20,628 nucleotides of DNA, taken from NCBI GenBank assembly GCA_017421885.1, contig JAFOHJ010000292.1:1-20628 (forward strand), given 5' to 3'. Both the position numbers and the translations under genes were made by a program. The notes under the pieces were generated by a model, which saw only the letters and a program-made list of their open reading frames with translations, ran no database searches and had not been told where the DNA came from. Shown in pieces: positions 1,946 to 19,424 of the stretch. The number at the start of each line of letters is the position of its first letter. Position 1 is the first letter of the stretch. The DNA is from Clostridia bacterium (GTDB lineage Bacteria; Bacillota_A; Clostridia; Oscillospirales; Butyricicoccaceae).

Positions 1946-2389
1946 CTATCTTCTTCTGCGAGACTTGGACCTCTTGTCGTTCTGCATACGCAGATCCGAC
2001 ATCTTGGATTCGCTGCGCTGCATGAACATACGGAGCTTATCTTCAAATATGCTGTCCTTGCTCTTTTCCAACATAGAACCGTCGGATATAGCCTCTTCGG
2101 CAGCCGGAGCTGCTGCTTTTTCCTGTTTTGGTGCAGCCTGAGGCTTCTCCTGGACGGGAAGCGCCTTTTTGATCGAAAGGTTAATCCTTCCGTTCTGATC
2201 AATTCCGATCAGCTTGACCTTAACAGTGTCTCCTTCATTGACATGTTTTTTTATATCGTCAACATATGTATTGGCGATTTCAGAGATATGTACCATTCCC
2301 GATTTTCCGGGAGCAAGCTGAACAAATGCTCCAAAACCGGTGACTCCCGTTACTTTTCCTTCGTAAATGCTTCCTACAGTAAACTCCAT
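1946..2389 (-). CDS. yabR: S1-domain RNA-binding protein, YabR family
   Basis: A 147-residue protein with one S1 (OB-fold) RNA-binding domain over roughly residues 1-75: VGSIYEGKVTGVTGFGAFVQL, then GMVHISEIA and GDTVKVKLIGIDQNGRINLSIKKA. This is the pattern of Bacillus YabR and general stress protein 13. An Ala/Pro/Lys/Glu-rich linker follows, and the tail is very basic (SRRRR at the end), which suits RNA or ribosome binding. Its exact role is not established in the family. It is the last gene of the cluster, as in Bacillus, where it follows divIC. The start at 2389 matches family N-termini. An in-frame ATG at 2410 adds seven residues, and neither start has a strong Shine-Dalgarno, so the choice is uncertain. 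Confidence 0.9.
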   Translation of the reverse strand: MEFTVGSIYEGKVTGVTGFGAFVQLAPGKSGMVHISEIANTYVDDIKKHVNEGDTVKVKLIGIDQNGRINLSIKKALPVQEKPQAAPKQEKAAAPAAEEAISDGSMLEKSKDSIFEDKLRMFMQRSESKMSDLRMQNDKRSKSRRRR

Positions 2390-2419
2390 CTGCAGTTCCG
2401 CGCCCCCCATGACAGTAAA

Positions 2420-2704
2420 TTATTTACTCGAGATATCAACAAACACTCTCTCGCCGGGAGAGATATATCCCAGCTTCTCTCTGGCGATCTCTGCGATATA
2501 CTCGGTGTCATCTTCGCATTCAAGGATATCCCTTATCTCGTCATTGCTGAGTTGCTGATCGCTGATGAGCAGGGCAAGCTGAGCCTTTTCTTTTTCCTTA
2601 TTTCTGATCTGAAGCTGGAGCGAAACAAGTGTGAAGGCTGCATAAACCGCAAATGCCAAAACAAATATTTTGACAAATGGATGTACTTTCCTTGTTCTTT
2701 TCAT
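2420..2704 (-). CDS. divIC: Cell division protein, DivIC/FtsB family
   Basis: A 94-aa bitopic membrane protein of the septum formation initiator family. It has a short basic cytoplasmic tail (MKRTRK), one transmembrane segment at about residues 10-30 (VKIFVLAFAVYAAFTLVSL) and a coiled coil (LQIRNKEKEKAQLALLISDQQ). The conserved end is EYIAEIAREKLGYISPGERVFVDI, which contains the family's AREKLGY and PGE signatures. DivIC partners FtsL and DivIB in the divisome and helps activate septal peptidoglycan synthesis. The start at 2704 has AGAAGGA about 5 bases upstream, whereas the longer reading from 2731 has none. The gene lies between yabQ and yabR as in Bacillus subtilis, with its own sigma-A promoter just upstream. 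Confidence 0.93.
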   Translation of the reverse strand: MKRTRKVHPFVKIFVLAFAVYAAFTLVSLQLQIRNKEKEKAQLALLISDQQLSNDEIRDILECEDDTEYIAEIAREKLGYISPGERVFVDISSK

Positions 2705-2751
2705 GCAGTCCTTCTCACCTCTCTGATCCATAAAGATTATTTGTTAGTTTA

Positions 2752-2780
2752 ATTGTATGCTTTTTTCCTTAAAAAGTCAA
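2752..2780 (-). promoter_or_regulatory. Sigma-A promoter for divIC-yabR
   Basis: On the minus strand TTGACT (2780-2775) and TACAAT (2757-2752) are separated by exactly 17 bases, each 5 of 6 to consensus. The site lies in the 85-base gap after yabQ, so divIC and yabR can be transcribed in growing cells independently of the sporulation genes before them. Confidence 0.75.
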
Positions 2781-2789
2781 TCCCAAAAC

Positions 2790-3173
2790 CTAATTTCCGG
2801 TGGGACCACTAAAGAGATTTTCGATAAAACACAGAACTTTTCTGCCTAATTTTACAAAGACAACAAAGCATTCCTCTATCGCGCACAGAAACACCCTTAC
2901 ATAGAACGCCGCGCCAAGAAAGTACAGCGTCAGGCCAATAAGCGCTCCGCCTAAGATATACCACCTGAGCACTCCGCCGGCACAGAAGATCACAAGGCCT
3001 GTGAAGCATACCATAAATACTGTGCAATAAAGAATATCACAAACTGCTCTTATATATCTGCGGCACACTATGCGCGGAAACACATTGACTATATCATACA
3101 CCAGTCCCATGCAAATACCCAGAAAACAGGCGAAGATAAAAGTCCTGGTCTGATCAAGAAGCACGATTTCCAT
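2790..3173 (-). CDS. yabQ: Spore cortex biosynthesis protein YabQ
   Basis: A 127-aa multi-spanning membrane protein with about four hydrophobic segments: TFIFACFLGICMGLVYDIVNVF, a central stretch around ILYCTVFMVCFTGLVIFCAGG, LRWYILGGALIGLTLYFLGAAFY, and a final amphipathic part. The opening pattern (Q-T-R-T-F ... G-x-x-x-G-x-x-Y-D) is that of YabQ, which in Bacillus is made under sigma-E in the mother cell and is needed for spore cortex assembly. It is shorter than the Bacillus protein (about 210 aa), as is common in Clostridia. The start at 3173 has AGGGGGC just upstream, and its stop-to-start gap from yabP is only 10 bases, so the two are co-translated. The assignment rests on both sequence pattern and gene order. 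Confidence 0.88.
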   Translation of the reverse strand: MEIVLLDQTRTFIFACFLGICMGLVYDIVNVFPRIVCRRYIRAVCDILYCTVFMVCFTGLVIFCAGGVLRWYILGGALIGLTLYFLGAAFYVRVFLCAIEECFVVFVKLGRKVLCFIENLFSGPTGN

Positions 3174-3183
3174 AGATGCCCCC

Positions 3184-3465
3184 TTAGAAAAGCTTAGACC
3201 AGAAGCTGCCTCTGTTCCTTCCGTCGCCAAGATATTCAAAGCTGTCGAGCCTGCCGTTAATGATAAGTTCGCCGGTATCAAGGCTCAGCCGCTCAACATG
3301 AAGCTCTTCTCCTCTTGTCACCAGTGTTCCGAGAACTGTCTCGGCCAGTATCTCGTTTTCGTCAAAGCTGATAACATCTTCAACCCCCGAAATACTCAGC
3401 CTTTCACGCCCTTCGAGGATAAGATTGCCTGTAGCTTCATTCTTTTTGCTGCTGTCCGCTGCCAT
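3184..3465 (-). CDS. yabP: Sporulation protein YabP
   Basis: A 93-aa soluble protein of the YabP/YqfC family. The diagnostic run is LILEGRERLSISGVEDVISFDENEI followed by ETVLGTLVTRGEELHVERLSLDTGELIINGRLDSFEY, closely matching the pattern of Bacillus YabP (GREQLMITGVKQVESFD, then ETVMGYLTIRGQNLHMKNL). In Bacillus it is a mother-cell sporulation gene under sigma-E, required for normal spore morphology together with yabQ. The start at 3465 is preceded by GGGAGGA, about 9-10 bases away. An ATG at 3486 has no ribosome site. The Shine-Dalgarno is the 3' arm of a long hairpin, and a sigma-E-like promoter lies just upstream; both are listed separately. Confidence 0.92.
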   Translation of the reverse strand: MAADSSKKNEATGNLILEGRERLSISGVEDVISFDENEILAETVLGTLVTRGEELHVERLSLDTGELIINGRLDSFEYLGDGRNRGSFWSKLF

Positions 3466-3474
3466 AAATAAAGA

Positions 3475-3515
3475 TCCTCCCTTCATGTGTCATAAATAAC
3501 AGTATGAAAGGAGGA
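3475..3515 (-). promoter_or_regulatory. Hairpin sequestering the yabP ribosome-binding site
   Basis: In minus-strand RNA the segment 3515-3504 (UCCUCCUUUCAU) pairs with 3486-3475 (AUGAAGGGAGGA): 12 pairs with a single G-U wobble and a 17-base loop (3503-3487). The 3' arm is the whole yabP Shine-Dalgarno, and the 5' arm lies just after the rqcP stop. The 3' arm is followed by UCUUUAUUU, so it could also act as a weak terminator. Pairing is seen in the sequence; the regulatory role is inferred. Confidence 0.65.
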
Positions 3516-3527
3516 AACGTTTTATTC
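3499..3527 (-). promoter_or_regulatory. Candidate sigma-E promoter for yabP-yabQ
   Basis: On the minus strand GAATAAA (3527-3521) is followed after exactly 14 bases by CATACTGT (3506-3499). The Bacillus sigma-E pattern is roughly GAATATT, 14 bases, CATACAAT, giving 5 of 7 and 6 of 8 matches at the expected spacing. The -35 overlaps the rqcP stop. Predicted start is near 3492. The yabP gene is a known sigma-E target in Bacillus, which supports the call. Confidence 0.6.
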
Positions 3528-3767
3528 GGTTATTTCGCTGTACATCAGGGCGGCATCCTGCTTGGTGACATGCTCAGGGATCGACAGAACCTTCACCTTA
3601 ACGGTGCGGGTACCGATAGTTATCTCAATGATGTCGCCTACCTTAACCTGATAGGACGCCTTAGCCTCTCTGCCGTTCACGACCACTCGCTGAGTATCAC
3701 AGGCCTCATTGGCCACCGTACGGCGCTTGATGAGGCGGGCCACCTTTAAATATTTGTCAAGCCTCAT
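3522..3767 (-). CDS. rqcP: S4-domain ribosome quality-control factor RqcP (YabO)
   Basis: An 81-aa protein that is essentially one S4 RNA-binding domain: MRLDKYLKVARLIKRRTVANEACD, then RVVVNGREAKASYQVKVGDIIEITIG. This matches RqcP (formerly YabO), the small relative of Hsp15 that binds stalled 50S subunits carrying peptidyl-tRNA and supports RqcH during C-terminal alanine tailing of nascent chains. The start at 3767 is preceded by GGAGGG at about 5 bases. Longer readings up to 3812 run into the hairpin after the HU gene. Its position between mazG/HU and yabP is the conserved one. The tail YSEITE is followed at once by the candidate sigma-E promoter for yabP. Confidence 0.93.
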   Translation of the reverse strand: MRLDKYLKVARLIKRRTVANEACDTQRVVVNGREAKASYQVKVGDIIEITIGTRTVKVKVLSIPEHVTKQDAALMYSEITE

Positions 3768-3785
3768 ATTTCCCTCCATAAAACC

Positions 3786-3813
3786 GATGGAAGCGGCATA
3801 GGCCGCTTCCATC
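3786..3813 (-). terminator. Hairpin between HU gene and rqcP
   Basis: GATGGAAGCGGC (3786-3797) and GCCGCTTCCATC (3802-3813) form a perfect 12-bp stem with a 4-base loop, 13 bases after the HU stop. On the minus strand it is followed by GGTTTTATGG, a poor T-tract. Likely a leaky terminator or an mRNA-stabilising 3' end for the highly expressed HU message, allowing read-through into rqcP, whose ribosome site begins about 10 bases later. Confidence 0.6.
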
Positions 3814-3826
3814 CTGTTATCGTTAC

Positions 3827-4102
3827 TTATTTTGCAACTACGTCCTTGAGAGCCTTGCCTGCCTTGAAAACAGGATACTTTGTCTCAGCCAGCTCGATGG
3901 GCTTCTTTGTCTGGGGATTGAAAGCTGTGCGTGCAGCTCTTGTCTTCACCTCAAAAGAGCCAAAGCCGATGAGCTGGACCTTGTTACCCTCTGCGAGCTC
4001 TTCTGTGATAGCAGCGATCATAGCTGTGAGAGCCTTCTCTGCATCCTTCTTGGAAAGCTCGGTCTTCTCAGCGATTGCTGCGATGAGTTCTGTCTTGTTC
4101 AT
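3827..4102 (-). CDS. hup: HU-family DNA-binding protein
   Basis: A 91-aa histone-like nucleoid protein of standard length. It opens with [28 protein letters not shown] (dimerising helices). The family signature follows at [30 protein letters not shown], where GFGSFEV and the arm RxxRxxxNPQT with the DNA-intercalating Pro are all present. It ends in [13 protein letters not shown] dimers bind and bend DNA without strong sequence specificity. GGAGGA lies about 6 bases before the start. The gene is inserted between mazG and rqcP, where Bacillus has none; many Clostridia show this arrangement. The 30-base gap after mazG has no clear promoter. Confidence 0.97.
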
Positions 4103-4132
4103 TTCGGTTCCTCCAAAATATTTGATTAATAA

Positions 4133-4912
4133 TTATCTGTGTTTGATCTCTTCCCAGATCTTATCCATCTCTTCGAGAGTCATCTCTGTGAGATCGCGGT
4201 CGGCAGCCTCTTCCATTTTGCAGAAGCGGCTTACAAACTTACGGCTTGCTCTTGTAAGAGCCTCCTCGGCATCTATATCGAGGAATCTTGCTGTATTGAC
4301 AACAGCAAAAAGCAGATCTCCCAGCTCGTCAGCAGGGTCGCCGTCTCCCTCCATTGCTCTGAGCAGCTCGGCCTTTTCTTCATCGATCTTCTGCAGCGCG
4401 CCATTAATGTCGGGCCAGTCGAATCCGGCCTTTGCGGCCTTTTTCTGCACCTTCTGGGCATACATAAGAGCGGGCAGCGACTTTGCCACCTGATTGATGG
4501 TGTCGCTGTGGGTCTTCTGGCTCTTCTCCACCTTCTTGATAGCGTCCCAGTTGTTAAGGACCTCTGCCGATGTTTCGGCAACCACATTTCCAAAAATATG
4601 CGGATGTCTGAGAATAAGCTTCTTGCAAACGCCGTCGCAGACATCATTTATATCAAAGGCGCCTCTTTCTTCCGCAAGATCGGCATGAAAGACACACTGA
4701 AGGATAACGTCACCCAGTTCTTCGCAGAGCAGAGCATCATCTTTGAGGTCGATGCCTTCACAGGCCTCGTATACCTCTTCGATAAAGTTCTTGCGGATGC
4801 TTTCATGGGTCTGTTCTCTGTCCCAGGGGCAGCCATTCTCGCCTCTGAGGATGTCCATAATCTGAAGAAGATCTTCAAAGCCATATTTTGGCTTGCTAAC
4901 AAAATTTATCAC
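4133..4912 (-). CDS. mazG: Nucleoside triphosphate pyrophosphohydrolase MazG
   Basis: A 259-aa all-alpha NTP pyrophosphatase with two tandem MazG repeats. The first is residues about 15-110, with GCPWDREQTHESI, EEVYEA (45-50) and EELGDVILQCVFHA (64-77). The second is about residues 155-240, with AGFDWPDINGALQKIDEEKAEL and DELGDLLFAVVNTARFLDIDAEEALTRASRKFVSRF. The Glu/Asp residues of EExxE and ELGD bind Mg. It hydrolyses NTPs to NMP and pyrophosphate, cleaning damaged or excess nucleotides. The start codon is GTG at 4912 with AAGGGG 8 bases upstream. In Bacillus the equivalent yabN carries an additional N-terminal tetrapyrrole-methylase domain; that domain is absent here and the enzyme has the length of E. 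coli MazG. Confidence 0.95.
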   Translation of the reverse strand: MINFVSKPKYGFEDLLQIMDILRGENGCPWDREQTHESIRKNFIEEVYEACEGIDLKDDALLCEELGDVILQCVFHADLAEERGAFDINDVCDGVCKKLILRHPHIFGNVVAETSAEVLNNWDAIKKVEKSQKTHSDTINQVAKSLPALMYAQKVQKKAAKAGFDWPDINGALQKIDEEKAELLRAMEGDGDPADELGDLLFAVVNTARFLDIDAEEALTRASRKFVSRFCKMEEAADRDLTEMTLEEMDKIWEEIKHR

Positions 4913-4969
4913 ACTTCTATCCCCTTTGCAAGTAAAATAATATATTTGATGATATTTTCCGGTGTTTTA

Positions 4970-6562
4970 TCACATTCTGAGCAATTTTGCTATTTTCTGT
5001 CCTTTAGGGAGCAGCAGCACATCTTCCTTGGGAAGGGCCTTAAGAGCGATCAGAAGCACAAGATATACTACTGCCGAGAGGCCGATCGTAACGACACAGC
5101 CCAGCTTACCGCCCAGAATATCGCTCATAGGCATATAGCAGAAATAGGTGAACACACCCATGATCGCCGATGCGGCAAAAGGCTTGAAGAAACTCTTTAT
5201 TACAGAAACACCCTTTACTGTCCTGGCTATTATGACCAGATTGATGATGGATATTGCACCGTAACATACCGTTGTACCGATAGGCGCTCCATATATCTCA
5301 ATTCCGGGAGTGCCGATAAGGGTGTAATTGGTGAGCAGTTTGATAACACCGCCGATAAGAACGCTGAACATAGGCATTTTTTCCTTGCCTACAGCCTGAA
5401 GGATGGCATTGGTTACCGACTGAAGGGCAACCAGCAAAACAGCTGGAGCAAGAATGACCAGCAGGGGCGCTGCTACCTCTACCTCTTCGAGCCTTCTGTA
5501 ATAAAGCAGCGAAAGAATGGGTTTTGCAAGAACAGCCAGGCCTGCGGCACAAGGCAGAGAGAAAATGGCTGTAAATCTGAGCGCTGTTGTAATAGTGCCC
5601 GAAGCCTTGAGATAATCCTTTCGAGCATATGCCGCTGCAACAGCAGGGATTATACTGATGGCAAGACCGACGATGAGAGCCTGGGGCATATTCCACATCT
5701 TGGTAGAGATATTATAGCAGCCGTAAATATAGTTGGCCTCTTCGACCGAATGACCCACATCCTGCAGGCGGTTGAGAACAACACCCATATCAATGAAGTT
5801 TACAACACTGAGGACCGATGCGCCGATAGTGATGGGAATTGCGATCTTGACAAGGCCTCTGGCGATCTCGGAATATCCGGTCGGAGCCACTGTCTGAACA
5901 GCCCCCTCAGGGATGCCGCTGCCTGCCTTGACACGGACAAGAATAATGTAAAGGGCGCTGAAAACCGTGCCCAGTGTAACACCGCCGATGGTGCCTGCAA
6001 CAACGATTTCAAGGCTGCAGCCGCGGTCCATAAGCACCTTGGTCAGCAGAAGGCCGAAAACAAGCTTACCTGCCGCCTCGATGACCTGCGAAATGGCTGT
6101 AGGAACCATGTTTGCAAGGCCCTGGAAATAGCCCCTGAAGGCCGAAACAATGGACACGATGAAGATGGAGGGTGCAATGGCCAGAACGGCATGATATGCC
6201 AGAGGATTGCCGATCATATTGACCAGTTCCTCGGCAAAGAACATCATTACAAATGTGCATATGCCGCCGATAACGGTAAAGAGAGACACCGCCACACGGA
6301 AGGTCCTTCTTACATCCTCATACTTACCGAGAGCATTGGCCTCGGCTACCATTCGCGACACAGCGACCGGAAGGCCGGCTGTAGAAATGGTGAACATGGC
6401 TGTGTATACATAGTATGCAACGGTGTAGATGCCGTTGCCCTCACCGCCTATCATATTTACGATCGGGATGTTATAAATAGCGCCGATGACCTTTACAAGG
6501 GCATTGGCTACAACGAGGACAAGGGCGCCCTCGAAGAACGAGCTGCTTTTACTTTTTTTCAA
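4970..6562 (-). CDS. Polysaccharide/lipid flippase, SpoVB-YabM-MurJ type
   Basis: A 530-aa integral membrane protein of the MOP (MATE/MVF) exporter superfamily, with about 14 hydrophobic segments across its length. The N-terminus FFEGALVLVVANALVKVIGAIYNIPIVNMIGGEGNGIY and the later TAGLPVAVSRMVAEANALGKYE, FRGYFQGLANMVPTAISQVIEA and LQAVGKEKMP are characteristic of the Firmicute SpoVB/YabM/YtgP group. These flip lipid-linked cell-wall precursors; SpoVB acts in cortex synthesis. Position next to mazG corresponds to yabM. I cannot tell from sequence alone whether it serves vegetative wall or cortex. The start is TTG at 6562 with only a weak AAAGG 13 bases upstream; no ATG or GTG is available in frame before an upstream stop. 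Confidence 0.88.
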   Translation of the reverse strand: MKKSKSSSFFEGALVLVVANALVKVIGAIYNIPIVNMIGGEGNGIYTVAYYVYTAMFTISTAGLPVAVSRMVAEANALGKYEDVRRTFRVAVSLFTVIGGICTFVMMFFAEELVNMIGNPLAYHAVLAIAPSIFIVSIVSAFRGYFQGLANMVPTAISQVIEAAGKLVFGLLLTKVLMDRGCSLEIVVAGTIGGVTLGTVFSALYIILVRVKAGSGIPEGAVQTVAPTGYSEIARGLVKIAIPITIGASVLSVVNFIDMGVVLNRLQDVGHSVEEANYIYGCYNISTKMWNMPQALIVGLAISIIPAVAAAYARKDYLKASGTITTALRFTAIFSLPCAAGLAVLAKPILSLLYYRRLEEVEVAAPLLVILAPAVLLVALQSVTNAILQAVGKEKMPMFSVLIGGVIKLLTNYTLIGTPGIEIYGAPIGTTVCYGAISIINLVIIARTVKGVSVIKSFFKPFAASAIMGVFTYFCYMPMSDILGGKLGCVVTIGLSAVVYLVLLIALKALPKEDVLLLPKGQKIAKLLRM

Positions 6563-7914: not shown

Positions 7915-8741
7915 TCATCCCCCATGTCGGCGATGCATGCCATAACCAGCTCGGAGAAAGGCTTCTTCATTCTGTTTGCAGTCTCCACAACATCGCTTCC
8001 GCTGAGCTTTTCCGGAAGTACACCTGCCGCCATATTGGTCATCAGCGAAAGTCCCAGCACCTCCATACCGCAATGAGAAGCTGCGATCGCTTCGTATACC
8101 GTCGACATTCCTGCGGCATCGCCGCCCAGCAGCCTTGCCGCCTTTATCTCAGCAGGAGTCTCGAACTGAGGGCCTGTGAAGTAAAAATACACTCCCTCCT
8201 GAAGCCTTATGCCAAGCTCTGATGCATTCTTTCGCGCCGAATCGCGCAGGCGAGGTGAATAGGTATAGGTCATATCAAAAAACCTCGGCCCAAGCTCGGG
8301 GATATTTACCCCTCTGAACGGTGTTGGCGCACACAGCTTGATATGATCGCGGATGAGCATGATATCACCTACGCTGTAACCGATATTTATAGCTCCTGCC
8401 GCGTTGGTGAGAATAAGCTTTTTTATTCCCATGACATGGGCCACATTGATGGGAAATACCACCTGTTCGGGCTCATATCCCTCGTAATAATGGAAGCGTC
8501 CCTGCATGACCATAACACACTTGCCCGCAAGCCTGCCAACCACAAGCCTGCCTGCATGGTCGGGTGCCGTAGACCGCGCAAACCCATGGATATCACCATA
8601 AGGGATTACAGCGGCATCTTCCACAAGATCGGCAACTCCACCCAGCCCCGAACCCAGAACGACCATGATCTCGGGTCTGTGGGCGCCGATGCGTGAGTTT
8701 ATATATTCAGCAGCTTTGAGATAATCGTTATAGCAATACAT
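7911..8741 (-). CDS. punA: Purine nucleoside phosphorylase, trimeric (6-oxopurine type)
   Basis: A 276-aa phosphorylase that cleaves purine nucleosides with phosphate to base and pentose-1-phosphate. The phosphate loop GSGLGG is at 30-35, and GRFHYYEGY, LTNAAGAIN and RDHIKL follow the class II (human-like) PNP pattern. TGPQFETPAEIK and GMSTVYEAIAA form the base-binding region. Glu194 and Asn236 (in LSLMTN) correspond to human Glu201 and Asn243, which select 6-oxopurines such as hypoxanthine and guanine. The start at 8741 is preceded by AAAGGAG at 6 bases; a longer TTG start at 8759 is unlikely. It overlaps mtaD. No promoter fits between the upstream zinc-ribbon gene and this one, and its ribosome site can be masked by a hairpin. 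Confidence 0.93.
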   Translation of the reverse strand: MYCYNDYLKAAEYINSRIGAHRPEIMVVLGSGLGGVADLVEDAAVIPYGDIHGFARSTAPDHAGRLVVGRLAGKCVMVMQGRFHYYEGYEPEQVVFPINVAHVMGIKKLILTNAAGAINIGYSVGDIMLIRDHIKLCAPTPFRGVNIPELGPRFFDMTYTYSPRLRDSARKNASELGIRLQEGVYFYFTGPQFETPAEIKAARLLGGDAAGMSTVYEAIAASHCGMEVLGLSLMTNMAAGVLPEKLSGSDVVETANRMKKPFSELVMACIADMGDE

Positions 8742-16461: not shown

Positions 16462-17877
16462 TTACAGAGTGGGCTTTACATCCGCGGGAATGGGGCACTC
16501 ATACTTGCCGCCGGTTGCCTTATTAAGCTCTTCTCTTGCCTTTACAAGAATGGAGGGATCGGCAATAGCCTTAGCCGCTGTCAGAGCCATTACCTTGGCC
16601 GCTGCCATGTTGCCCTTATTGGCAATGGACGAACGGGACTGAGCTGTCATCTGCCAGCTGTGGCCGGGAGTCGCCAGCGCAATAGTTGCAACATTGCACT
16701 GAGCTGTGGGTGTGCAGTAACTTACATCGCCGACATCGGTCGAGCCGGGCATTGCCTTATCGATGGGTGTATAGGGCAGAATACTTGTATGCAGGGGCGA
16801 ATCGCCGAATGCCTCTTCGGCAGTCATGCCGTAATCAGCGAGGGCTGCCGATATATCGGCAATGTCTGCCTCGCTGAAGGTTGCGCGGAACTGATTTGCA
16901 AGGGCAAAGTCGGCCTCGTCGAACTGAGGTGCGCCGACTTCTTCAAAAGCTTCCTGCATGAGCTTTTCAAGAGTGCGGTTATTGCAGCAGTCGCTGAGAG
17001 CCTCGTGGAAATGAAGCTTCATTGTTGTGCCTGTCATCTTTGCAGCACCCTCAGCACAGTCGAGAACGCGCTGGAAGATCTCCTGAGCAGCCTTGATCTT
17101 GGGTGCGCGGACAAAATAGTGGATCTTTGCCTTGTCGTGGACGACATTGGGCGCAATACCGCCTGCGTTTACATATGCATAATGAACACGCGCCTCGGGA
17201 ATGATGTGCTCACGCAGATAGTTGACGCCAACATTCATCAGCTCGCAGGCATCGAGAGCCGAGCGGCCGAGATGGGGATTACCTGCCGCATGAGCCGATA
17301 CGCCTGTAAACTCGAAGAATGCGCTGATGCATGCAAGGCTGGATGTGCCCTTTACATTGTTCATGTCGCCGGGATGCCATGTCAGTGCACAATCGAGATC
17401 TTCAAACAGACCGTTTCTTGCCATAAAGACCTTGCCCGAACCGTATTCCTCACCGGGGCAGCCGTAATAACGGACTGTGCCGGAAATGCCGTTTTCCTTA
17501 AGATAATCTCTGAACGCCAGAGCAGCGCCTGCAGCTGCAGCGCCGAGGCTGTTATGTCCGCAGCCCTGACCGTATGCGCCCTCAACGACAGGCTTTTTCT
17601 CAGGCAGGGAAGCTTCCTGAGAAAGTGTAGGCAACGCATCGTATTCGCCGAGGAAGCCAATGATGGGCTTGCCCTCTCCCCAACTTGCGACAAAGGCTGT
17701 GGGCACCTCGCCGACACCCATGTCGACCTTGAATCCGCGTTCTTCAAAGAACTTACCATAGAACTCGGCCGACTTATACTCCTTCATGCCGGGTTCAGCA
17801 TATTCCCAGATCGTGTCGTTGACCAGATTGATATCGGCGGCATTGCGCTCGACCAATGCAGAAATAATCTCTTTCAT
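16462..17877 (-). CDS. AbgB-like M20 amidohydrolase, copy 2
   Basis: A 471-aa M20D-family metallohydrolase resembling E. coli AbgB (p-aminobenzoyl-glutamate hydrolase subunit) along its whole length, including ALTWHP, SAHAAGNPHLGRSALDACELM, GSTDVGDVSYCTPTAQC and the ending CPIPADVKPTL. Metal ligands expected in M20D are present: C106 and H108 (GQGCGHN), E143-E144 (PGEE), H168, and the late His in TPGHSWQ. The usual HGCGHN reads QGCGHN here (Q104). It probably cleaves an N-acyl or aminobenzoyl amino acid; the substrate is unproven. The start at 17877 is set by AAAGGAG about 11 bases upstream; the longer reading to 18006 runs back through the previous gene's terminator. It is a tandem paralogue of the next gene. 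No abgA or abgT partner is in view. Confidence 0.88.
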   Translation of the reverse strand: MKEIISALVERNAADINLVNDTIWEYAEPGMKEYKSAEFYGKFFEERGFKVDMGVGEVPTAFVASWGEGKPIIGFLGEYDALPTLSQEASLPEKKPVVEGAYGQGCGHNSLGAAAAGAALAFRDYLKENGISGTVRYYGCPGEEYGSGKVFMARNGLFEDLDCALTWHPGDMNNVKGTSSLACISAFFEFTGVSAHAAGNPHLGRSALDACELMNVGVNYLREHIIPEARVHYAYVNAGGIAPNVVHDKAKIHYFVRAPKIKAAQEIFQRVLDCAEGAAKMTGTTMKLHFHEALSDCCNNRTLEKLMQEAFEEVGAPQFDEADFALANQFRATFSEADIADISAALADYGMTAEEAFGDSPLHTSILPYTPIDKAMPGSTDVGDVSYCTPTAQCNVATIALATPGHSWQMTAQSRSSIANKGNMAAAKVMALTAAKAIADPSILVKAREELNKATGGKYECPIPADVKPTL

Positions 17878-17925
17878 GTTTATTTTCTCTCCTTTTTCAG
17901 GTGAATATATATTTGTTTTCATGAT

Positions 17926-17954
17926 ATCATATTCTATGCCGAAAAGCAAAACAA
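17926..17954 (-). promoter_or_regulatory. Promoter for AbgB-like copy 2
   Basis: On the minus strand TTGTTT (17954-17949) and TATGAT (17931-17926) lie 17 bases apart. The -35 falls within the T-tract of the preceding terminator. A second pairing, TTGCTT with TATCAT a few bases downstream, is also possible, so the exact hexamers are uncertain. Confidence 0.5.
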
Positions 17955-17984
17955 AAAGAAGCCCCGGAGAATAAACTCCGGGGC
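17942..17984 (-). terminator. Intrinsic terminator after AbgB-like copy 1
   Basis: GCCCCGGAG (17961-17969) and CTCCGGGGC (17976-17984) form a perfect GC-rich 9-bp stem with a 6-base loop, followed on the minus strand by TTCTTTTTGTTTTG. A textbook terminator, placed 18 bases after the stop. Confidence 0.95.
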
Positions 17985-18002
17985 CGATCTTATTACTGAA
18001 AA

Positions 18003-19424
18003 TCAAACATTGGGCTTGATATGTGCAGGCATTGCCGAGACATACCCGCCGCCTGTGGAAGCCTTGAGCTCGGCTTTCGCCTTTGCCATCATTTCCTTGT
18101 CTTCAATGGCCATGGCTGCGGTCAGCGCAAGCACCTTTGCAGCTACAACTGTACCCTTGTGGGCAATGGACGAGTTGGACAGAGCTGTGATCTGCCAGCT
18201 GTGGCCCGGTGTGCCAAGAACTTCGGTTGCAACACCGCACTGAGCTGTGGGAGCACAGTAGCTTGCATCGCCAACATCGGTAGAACCCGACATAGCCTTA
18301 TTGAGAGGCTTATAGGGCAGCACCTTTGTGTGAAGAACTTCGTCGTCACCAATCAGGTAAGTGTCGAGGTCAAGGCCTGCAAGGCCTGCCTTTACCGATG
18401 CAAGGTTGCCTGCATTGAAGGTCTTACGGAACTCCTGAGCCAGTGCATAGTCGTTCTCGTCAAACTCGGGAGCACCGATCTCATTGAGAGCCTGCTCCAT
18501 AACATGGCTGAGGGTGATATTGGGCAGATAATCGTAAATTGCCTCCTTGAGGTCAACCACATGTGTGGTGCCGGTCATCTTGGCAGCACCTTCGGCGATA
18601 TCCTGAACTCGCGCATAGATCTCCTGAGCCTGGCTCATCTTGGGAGCACGGATAAAGTAGTGTATAGTAGCCTTGTCATGAACGACATTGGGAGCAATGC
18701 CTCCGGCATTTACATATGCATAGTGAACACGAGCCTCGGGGATGATGTGCTCGCGCAGATAGTTGACACCGATGTTCATCAGTTCGCAGGCATCAAGCGC
18801 CGAGCGGCCAAGATGGGGGTTGGCAGCGGCATGAGCCGTTACACCTGTGAATGTGAACATAACGCTGATGTTTGCAAGGCTTGATGTTGCCCATACATTG
18901 TTCTTGTCGGCAGGATGCCATGTGAGGCAGATGTCGAGATCGTTGAACAGGCCGGCTCTTGCCATATAGATTTTGCCCGAGCCATATTCCTCACCGGGGC
19001 ATCCGTAGAAACGGACTGTGCCGGGAAGGCCGTTTTCCTTGAGGTAATCCTTAAATGCCAGCGCAGCGCCTGCAGCACCTGCACCGAGGCAGTTATGGCC
19101 GCAGCCATGTCCGTACGCGCCCTCAACGATGGGCTTCTTCTCTGCCAGAGATGCCTCCTGAGAAAGTGTGGGAAGAGCGTCGAACTCGCCAAGGAAGCCT
19201 ACAACAGGCTCACCTTCGCCCCACGAAGCGACAAATGCTGTGGGCATATCGGCAAGACCCATTTCAAGCTTGAAGCCCTGCTGCTTCCAGAACTCTTCAT
19301 AAAATTTTGCGGTCTTATATTCCTTCATACCGGCTTCGGCATATTCCCAGACAGTATCGCTGACCTTGATGATATCATCATAATAATTGTCTACCAGACG
19401 GGAGATCATTTCTTTCTTGCTCAT
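18003..19424 (-). CDS. AbgB-like M20 amidohydrolase, copy 1
   Basis: A 473-aa M20D metallohydrolase, the paralogue of copy 2, again AbgB-like over its full length (E. coli AbgB is 481 aa). Metal ligands: C108 and H110 in GHGCGHN, E145-E146 in PGEEYGSG, H170 in LTWHP and H408 in TPGHSWQ. The lid/dimerisation domain holds FTGVTAHAAANPHLGRSALDACELMNIGVN. The canonical His of HGCGHN is kept here. Likely substrates are aminoacyl or aminobenzoyl amides such as folate breakdown products or N-acyl amino acids; this is inference from family. The start at 19424 has GAGGTG 5 bases upstream. It is transcribed first of the pair from a promoter that abuts the divergent ATP-grasp promoter. Confidence 0.9.
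   Translation of the reverse strand: MSKKEMISRLVDNYYDDIIKVSDTVWEYAEAGMKEYKTAKFYEEFWKQQGFKLEMGLADMPTAFVASWGEGEPVVGFLGEFDALPTLSQEASLAEKKPIVEGAYGHGCGHNCLGAGAAGAALAFKDYLKENGLPGTVRFYGCPGEEYGSGKIYMARAGLFNDLDICLTWHPADKNNVWATSSLANISVMFTFTGVTAHAAANPHLGRSALDACELMNIGVNYLREHIIPEARVHYAYVNAGGIAPNVVHDKATIHYFIRAPKMSQAQEIYARVQDIAEGAAKMTGTTHVVDLKEAIYDYLPNITLSHVMEQALNEIGAPEFDENDYALAQEFRKTFNAGNLASVKAGLAGLDLDTYLIGDDEVLHTKVLPYKPLNKAMSGSTDVGDASYCAPTAQCGVATEVLGTPGHSWQITALSNSSIAHKGTVVAAKVLALTAAMAIEDKEMMAKAKAELKASTGGGYVSAMPAHIKPNV

Follow-up and report, generated by a model that had tools for sequence, protein, structure and literature searches.

A sigma-E-type promoter nested in a predicted insulator hairpin upstream of the sporulation gene yabP in Clostridia

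Introduction

In IS10 and IS50, RNA that reads through into the element hides the Shine-Dalgarno (SD) sequence of the transposase gene, whereas the element's own transcript does not. In enterobacterial pyrC, the position of the transcription start decides whether a hairpin over the SD sequence forms. The early transcripts of gene e of phage T4 are folded, and the transcripts from its late promoter lack the 5′ part, according to the accessible portions of the published accounts (PMC3014915, PMC2988022). Sporulation genes can lie within longer operons, and the natural assumption is that the sigma cascade alone silences them during growth. In Bacillus subtilis, yabPQ is under sigma-E control by an internal promoter, and the control of divIC-yabR is separate from that of yabPQ; the accessible part of this account mentions no insulating hairpin (PMC1925097). 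The open-access literature, judged by titles and the beginnings of abstracts, contained no report of a start-dependent hairpin for yabP or sporulation genes, and we found no open-access report of an insulator formed by a promoter within the loop of a terminator.

Here, we analyse the region upstream of yabP in a 20,628-nucleotide stretch of DNA from a Clostridia bacterium (contig JAFOHJ010000292.1), which is referred to as the window. An earlier note, made from the letters of this sequence, had claimed that the yabP SD is paired in read-through RNA, and that a sigma-E-like promoter begins a shorter mRNA within the loop of the same hairpin.

Results

Organization of the yabP locus

The minus-strand genes of the window are ordered spoVB-like, mazG, HU, rqcP-like, yabP, yabQ, divIC/ftsL-like, and S1-domain, and all features described below are on this strand. 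The yabP gene (3465-3184) encodes the sporulation protein YabP, which matches TIGR02892 with 82.9 bits at a cut-off of 75.4, and PF07873. The yabQ gene (3173-2790) encodes the spore cortex protein YabQ (TIGR02893, 47.5 bits), and its SD overlaps the stop codon of yabP, so yabQ may depend on the translation of yabP. Upstream of yabP is an S4-domain gene (3764-3522, PF01479), which we take to be rqcP. It is presumably expressed in growth and is the presumed source of read-through into yabP. The stop codon of rqcP, which ends at position 3522, is separated from the yabP start at position 3465 by 56 bases, and most of the promoter and the inverted repeat are contained within this gap. A longer yabP reading frame starting at position 3486 was considered and rejected; its ATG belongs to the 3′ arm, and the corresponding ATG at locus L053 is out of frame with yabP.

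The divIC/ftsL-like gene is preceded by a sigma-A-like promoter, TTGACT-17-TACAAT (2780-2752), with a 10/12 match, although the stretch contains three sigma-A-like matches where 3.0 are expected from shuffles. If this promoter is real, the silencing of yabP-yabQ need not extend to the division gene. The gap between HU and rqcP contains a terminator-like hairpin of 12 pairs with a short U-run (3813-3786), positioned directly before the rqcP SD, which may limit the amount of read-through into both rqcP and yabP. Elsewhere on the minus strand (16462-19424), two similar amidohydrolase/peptidase-like reading frames, recognized by eye, are adjacent in tandem and are likely the product of a duplication.

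Structure of the hairpin and the promoter

In the predicted folds of the read-through RNA, nucleotides 3515-3504 pair with nucleotides 3486-3475 exactly as the earlier note had described, in 12 pairs including one G-U. The 5′ arm (3515-3504) is complementary to the yabP SD and is absent from the predicted sigma-E mRNA. The 3′ arm (3486-3475) includes the SD, AGGGAGG (3482-3476), the start codon being 10 nt away; both the sequence and the fold bear out this part of the claim. The loop is structured by an inner stem of five pairs, in which nucleotides 3501-3497 are predicted to pair with 3492-3488. The spacer between the SD and the start codon, TCTTTATTT (3474-3466), is U-rich and resembles the U-tract of a terminator. 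An intrinsic terminator consists of a GC-rich stem with a U-run directly behind it. The tail that follows the hairpin, UCUUUAUU, has six U in eight positions, and the U-tract is interrupted. A terminator scan did not list the hairpin, the loop of which is large and structured; the loop limit of the scan was 8. A search of positions 2300-5000 against Rfam gave no family match, and its one hit lies elsewhere, far under the gathering score of the family concerned.

The read-through RNA, 106 nt in length, has a folding energy of -26 kcal/mol, compared with a mean of -16.5 kcal/mol for shuffled sequences (z -3.38, 0/200). The pairing between the parts upstream and downstream of the predicted transcription start, termed cross-start pairing, amounts to -18.3 kcal/mol (z -5.6), which was reached by none of 200 dinucleotide shuffles. 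yabP is the most extreme of 18 start positions in the window, a set in which the starts of yabQ and rqcP were mis-assigned. The second-strongest pairing in the window belongs to the start at position 8741 on the minus strand (z -3.3, p 0.01), where it involves the SD of a gene that was named nucleoside-phosphorylase-like by reading its sequence.

The consensus of sigma-E promoters consists of a KMATATT-like -35 element, a spacing of 14 nt, and a CATA-type -10 element. A promoter scan of the yabP upstream region identified a sigma-E-type -35 element, GAATAAA (3527-3521), which overlaps the end of rqcP, and, after a spacing of 14 nt, a sigma-E-type -10 element, CATACTGT (3506-3499). The promoter GAATAAA-14-CATACTGT thus spans positions 3527-3499. 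Its -10 element overlaps the 5′ arm of the hairpin, in agreement with the motif and geometry that had been proposed. From the motif spacing, transcription is predicted to start approximately 7 nt after the -10 element, near position 3492, between the two arms. In the read-through fold, the -35 element can in addition pair with nucleotides 3472-3466 of the U-rich spacer.

Promoters were scored by hand-made rules built on this consensus, in which the 14-nt spacing earned a slight bonus. The comparison comprised 97 yabP upstream regions: the window, 83 loci of the family that contains its closest relative, and 13 loci of other genomes. The -10 element was placed by hand in L009, L044, L074, L097, and L106, and for L044 and L097 the start codon was as well. 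The promoter of the window has a score of 19.0, the maximum, a value shared by 9 of the 97 upstream regions. Scores of at least 15 were found in 94 of the 97 real upstream regions and in 12.7% of shuffles, and the 14-nt spacing, which the score slightly favours, is present in 90 of the 97. The CATA of the -10 element is unchanged across the aligned close relatives. A sigma-E gene was matched with at least 300 bits in 78 of the 87 genomes of the family, 34 of them over the curated cut-off; the draft genome of the nearest relative (G001) gave no clear sigma-E match, its best hit being 210.6 bits.

Accessibility of the Shine-Dalgarno sequence

The opening of the yabP SD is computed to cost 13.6-14.7 kcal/mol in the read-through RNA of the window and 2.2-4.2 kcal/mol in an RNA starting near position 3492. 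In the model of the read-through RNA, the probability of the SD being unpaired is 0.000. In the sigma-E RNA it is 0.41 when 30 nt of coding sequence are included and 0.15 with 60 nt, and the SD is predicted to pair weakly with the leader and early codons. The sigma-E mRNA, which had been expected to leave the site open, does not leave the SD wholly free, although opening is predicted to be far cheaper.

Among loci with an rqcP-yabP gap of at most 64 nt, the SD is less accessible in the read-through RNA in 20 of 20 cases, the window included, with a median accessibility of 0.00 compared with 0.55 in the sigma-E RNA. The masking logic put forward for yabP is thus upheld comparatively in the short-gap loci, but masking is only part of the picture. 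A ribosome that terminates at the rqcP stop codon (3524-3522) would sit on some of the 5′ arm and might thereby open the hairpin, which argues against a function as an insulator.

Recurrence in relatives and at control starts

The closest sequence found is that of L001, from a goat-colon draft genome, which shares 89% YabP identity with the window and keeps the hairpin. In the family to which L001 belongs, 83 of 87 genomes contain yabP. Cross-start pairing with p <=0.05 was detected at 62 of the 83 family loci (median z -3.0) and at 6 of 13 loci outside the family. With the window added to the 83 family genomes, 58 of 84 yabP loci have a hairpin of -14 kcal/mol or lower around the promoter, as opposed to 11.1% of shuffles, and the predicted start lies past the 5′ arm in all 58. 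At the same cut-off, the terminator form was found at 53 of 84 loci (null 2.9%) and the SD-mask form at 28 of 84 (null 8.9%); one locus may satisfy both. The hairpin recurs with arm sequences that differ between lineages.

At control starts, pairing with p <=0.05 was found for 2 of 70 HU starts (13 of 83 loci were untestable) and for 1 of 14 sigma-E starts of spoIIIAA, where the remainder of the 30 loci had no start combining an SD with a promoter score of 15. For yqfC, a sigma-E-controlled paralogue of yabP, 5 of the 18 scorable loci out of 30 fetched showed pairing at p 0.05. Of the rqcP starts, tested at 78 of the 83 loci, 14 reached p <=0.05, eight of them at z -3 or lower, perhaps owing to HU terminators directly upstream; their median z was 0.10. 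Cross-start pairing is therefore not unique to yabP, although the four sets of counts indicate that it is no general feature of gene starts or sigma-E promoters. The gene spoIVA was dropped as a control; by eye, it seems in most cases to follow another reading frame, and its own start seems to lack a sigma-E promoter. Upstream of yqfC at locus L137 (G086), an SD mask surrounds a possible sigma-E -10 element (z -4.4), the sole clear case by eye.

A class-wide draw of 245 genomes contained yabP in 186. Of the best-scoring 30 of these 186 loci, which are no random sample, 28 were scored, with a median z of -0.25, and nine of the 28 have significant nested pairing, so that the recurrence is less well supported beyond the family. 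By eye, L229, L216, and L221 contain clear SD masks or nested terminators, and in several other class-wide loci a terminator appears to precede the promoter.

Forms of the putative insulation and their evolution

Under a looser rule, the 84 loci can be divided into 27 with an SD mask, 34 with a nested terminator and the SD beyond it, 22 with a separate upstream terminator, and one with none of these. Upstream-terminator loci were counted first, and a nested hairpin occurs in addition at two of these 22. Six of the 27 mask loci (L029, L039, L085, L086, L087, and L091) were assigned by predicted accessibility alone, L079 was put in the terminator class at -13, and L087 and L108 are weak members. 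A nested or upstream insulator is present at 83 of 84 loci under the looser rule and at 78 of 84 under the strict cut-off of -14 kcal/mol, which gave two loci with both, 56 with the nested element only, 20 with the upstream element only, and six with neither. The near-exclusion of the nested and upstream elements is tied to the length of the gap, since an upstream terminator does not fit into a short one. A YabP tree, the resolution of which is limited, requires 13 changes of form, and the well-supported branches alone force fewer. At locus L036 (G094), a relative of the SD-mask clade, a second SD stands behind a nested terminator, which gives the SD region the look of a duplication.

The two RNAs differ in SD opening cost by at least 3 kcal/mol at 23 of 27 mask loci, compared with 3 of the 34 nested-terminator loci and 2 of the 22 upstream-terminator loci, a contrast that is partly by construction, since the mask class is defined by masking. 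In the terminator classes, the costs are nearly equal in both RNAs (medians of 1.7 and 1.6, and of 2.1 and 1.3 kcal/mol). The eight nucleotides before the start codon contain on average 4.9 T in the SD-mask class, compared with 1.8 for HU and 2.2 for rqcP, and six in the window; termination may therefore contribute in the window too.

The upstream halves of the region were swapped among 41 loci, each representing a different cluster and none with an upstream terminator. Mean pairing is -17.3 kcal/mol with the own half and -7.5 kcal/mol with a foreign half, none of 20000 permutations reached the observed total, and at 20 of the 41 loci no foreign half surpasses the own one. This outcome indicates that the arms have changed together. 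Covariation between the arms, which had been suggested as a check on the hairpin, is present but weak in the seven closest sequences: 93.9% of cells are paired, but only two pairs are changed on both sides, and 55 of 500 shuffles have an equally high number of double-sided changes. Two outer pairs present in five of these seven sequences are missing from the window, and L068, in which the helix is in another register, was omitted from the comparison.

Discussion

The best explanation for the region upstream of yabP is, in our judgement quite probably, a promoter-nested insulator hairpin. RNA entering from rqcP would contain both arms and fold into the 12-pair hairpin, which would bury the yabP SD; together with the U-rich stretch that follows it, the hairpin may also terminate transcription. 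Sigma-E polymerase would initiate in the loop. The start in the loop implies an mRNA that lacks the 5′ arm and cannot fold the hairpin, and such an mRNA would be made and translated. The expression of yabP-yabQ would hence be bound to the sporulating mother cell, even though the genes follow rqcP. Several observations weigh against this explanation: the sigma-E RNA of the window still pairs its SD in part, double-sided changes are few among the closest sequences, two outer pairs common there are missing from the window, the recurrence is less well supported beyond the family, rqcP starts also show some cross-start pairing, the terminator scan did not list the hairpin, and the nearest relative's draft genome gave no clear sigma-E match.

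How the silencing would be divided between masking and termination can be read in two further ways. The hairpin may act chiefly as the intrinsic terminator that closes the upstream operon, with a 3′ arm that doubles as the SD so that the mask is a by-product, and we give this reading a little less than an even chance. At least five of the eight nucleotides before the start codon are T at 20 of the 27 SD-mask loci, and in sister lineages the SD lies beyond a plain nested terminator, as it would lead one to expect. It accounts less well for L001 and L030, and for L008 and L010 outside the family, where poor U-tracts accompany strong masks, or for the interrupted U-tract of the window; the difference in SD opening cost at 23 of 27 mask loci also speaks against it, albeit partly by construction. 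The same four mask-only loci, along with the geometry and predicted energies, are what would be expected of a purely translational mask, as in the T4 late genes, with no part for termination. The U-rich spacer, like the nested terminators that relatives have, points away from that reading, which we regard as possible but somewhat doubtful. Considering masking at short-gap loci, the U-richness of the mask class, and L001 with its poor U-tract and strong mask together, we hold insulation to be the shared function.

Two readings without RNA-level insulation appear very improbable. An inverted repeat lying across a promoter could be a DNA operator, at which a repressor covers the sigma-E -10 element. 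However, pairing is kept while the arm sequences vary between lineages, the 3′ arms are SDs or precede U-runs in the mask- and terminator-class loci, and only two of 22 upstream-terminator loci also have a strong dyad. Chance pairing of an anti-SD stretch with a C- and T-rich -10 flank, by composition, deserves equally little credence: shuffles do form hairpins often under weak cut-offs (42% at -8 kcal/mol), but none of 200 did so to the observed extent in the window, and the recurrence is strong.

Beyond the window, we lean towards the view that Clostridia keep a general, evolvable device, in which a promoter for a stage-specific sigma factor lies within a hairpin that silences upstream transcripts. 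The position at which the polymerase starts would decide the fate of the RNA, and in the course of evolution the silencing end would switch between masking the SD, terminating with the SD as 3′ arm, and plain termination. The promoter-nested hairpin would render leakage from upstream unproductive at little cost to the authentic transcript. It would extend the logic of phage T4 to development in bacteria, and it makes a prediction for the layout of internal promoters in compact genomes. Its signature, a stage-specific -10 element in a hairpin with a 3′ arm that either is an SD or lies ahead of a U-run, lends itself to genome-wide searches.

Among the known systems, B. subtilis yabPQ resembles the locus in being sigma-E controlled within a longer operon, as far as the accessible part of that account goes (PMC1925097). 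The locus differs from IS10 and IS50, which are mobile elements and involve no stage-specific sigma factor, and from pyrC, where nucleotide pools shift the start by a few bases at one promoter; at yabP, the alternatives are read-through and an internal promoter. The closest likeness is to T4 gene e, and also to soc, 49, and I-TevI, the longer early transcripts of which fold and hide the SD. Two features of the T4 type are predicted in the window: the long transcript folds into a stable hairpin whose 3′ arm holds the SD, and, by motif and geometry, the promoter of the later stage overlaps the 5′ strand and gives a transcript without the structure. Unlike gene e, yabP is a chromosomal sporulation gene with a sigma-E-type promoter, its relatives have variously an SD mask, a nested terminator, or a terminator further upstream, and a terminator-like U-tract follows the SD. 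The gene e logic invoked in the earlier note is the same as that proposed for yabP, to the extent that the accessible portions of the T4 accounts describe it, and the membership of yabP in this group is mechanistic only.
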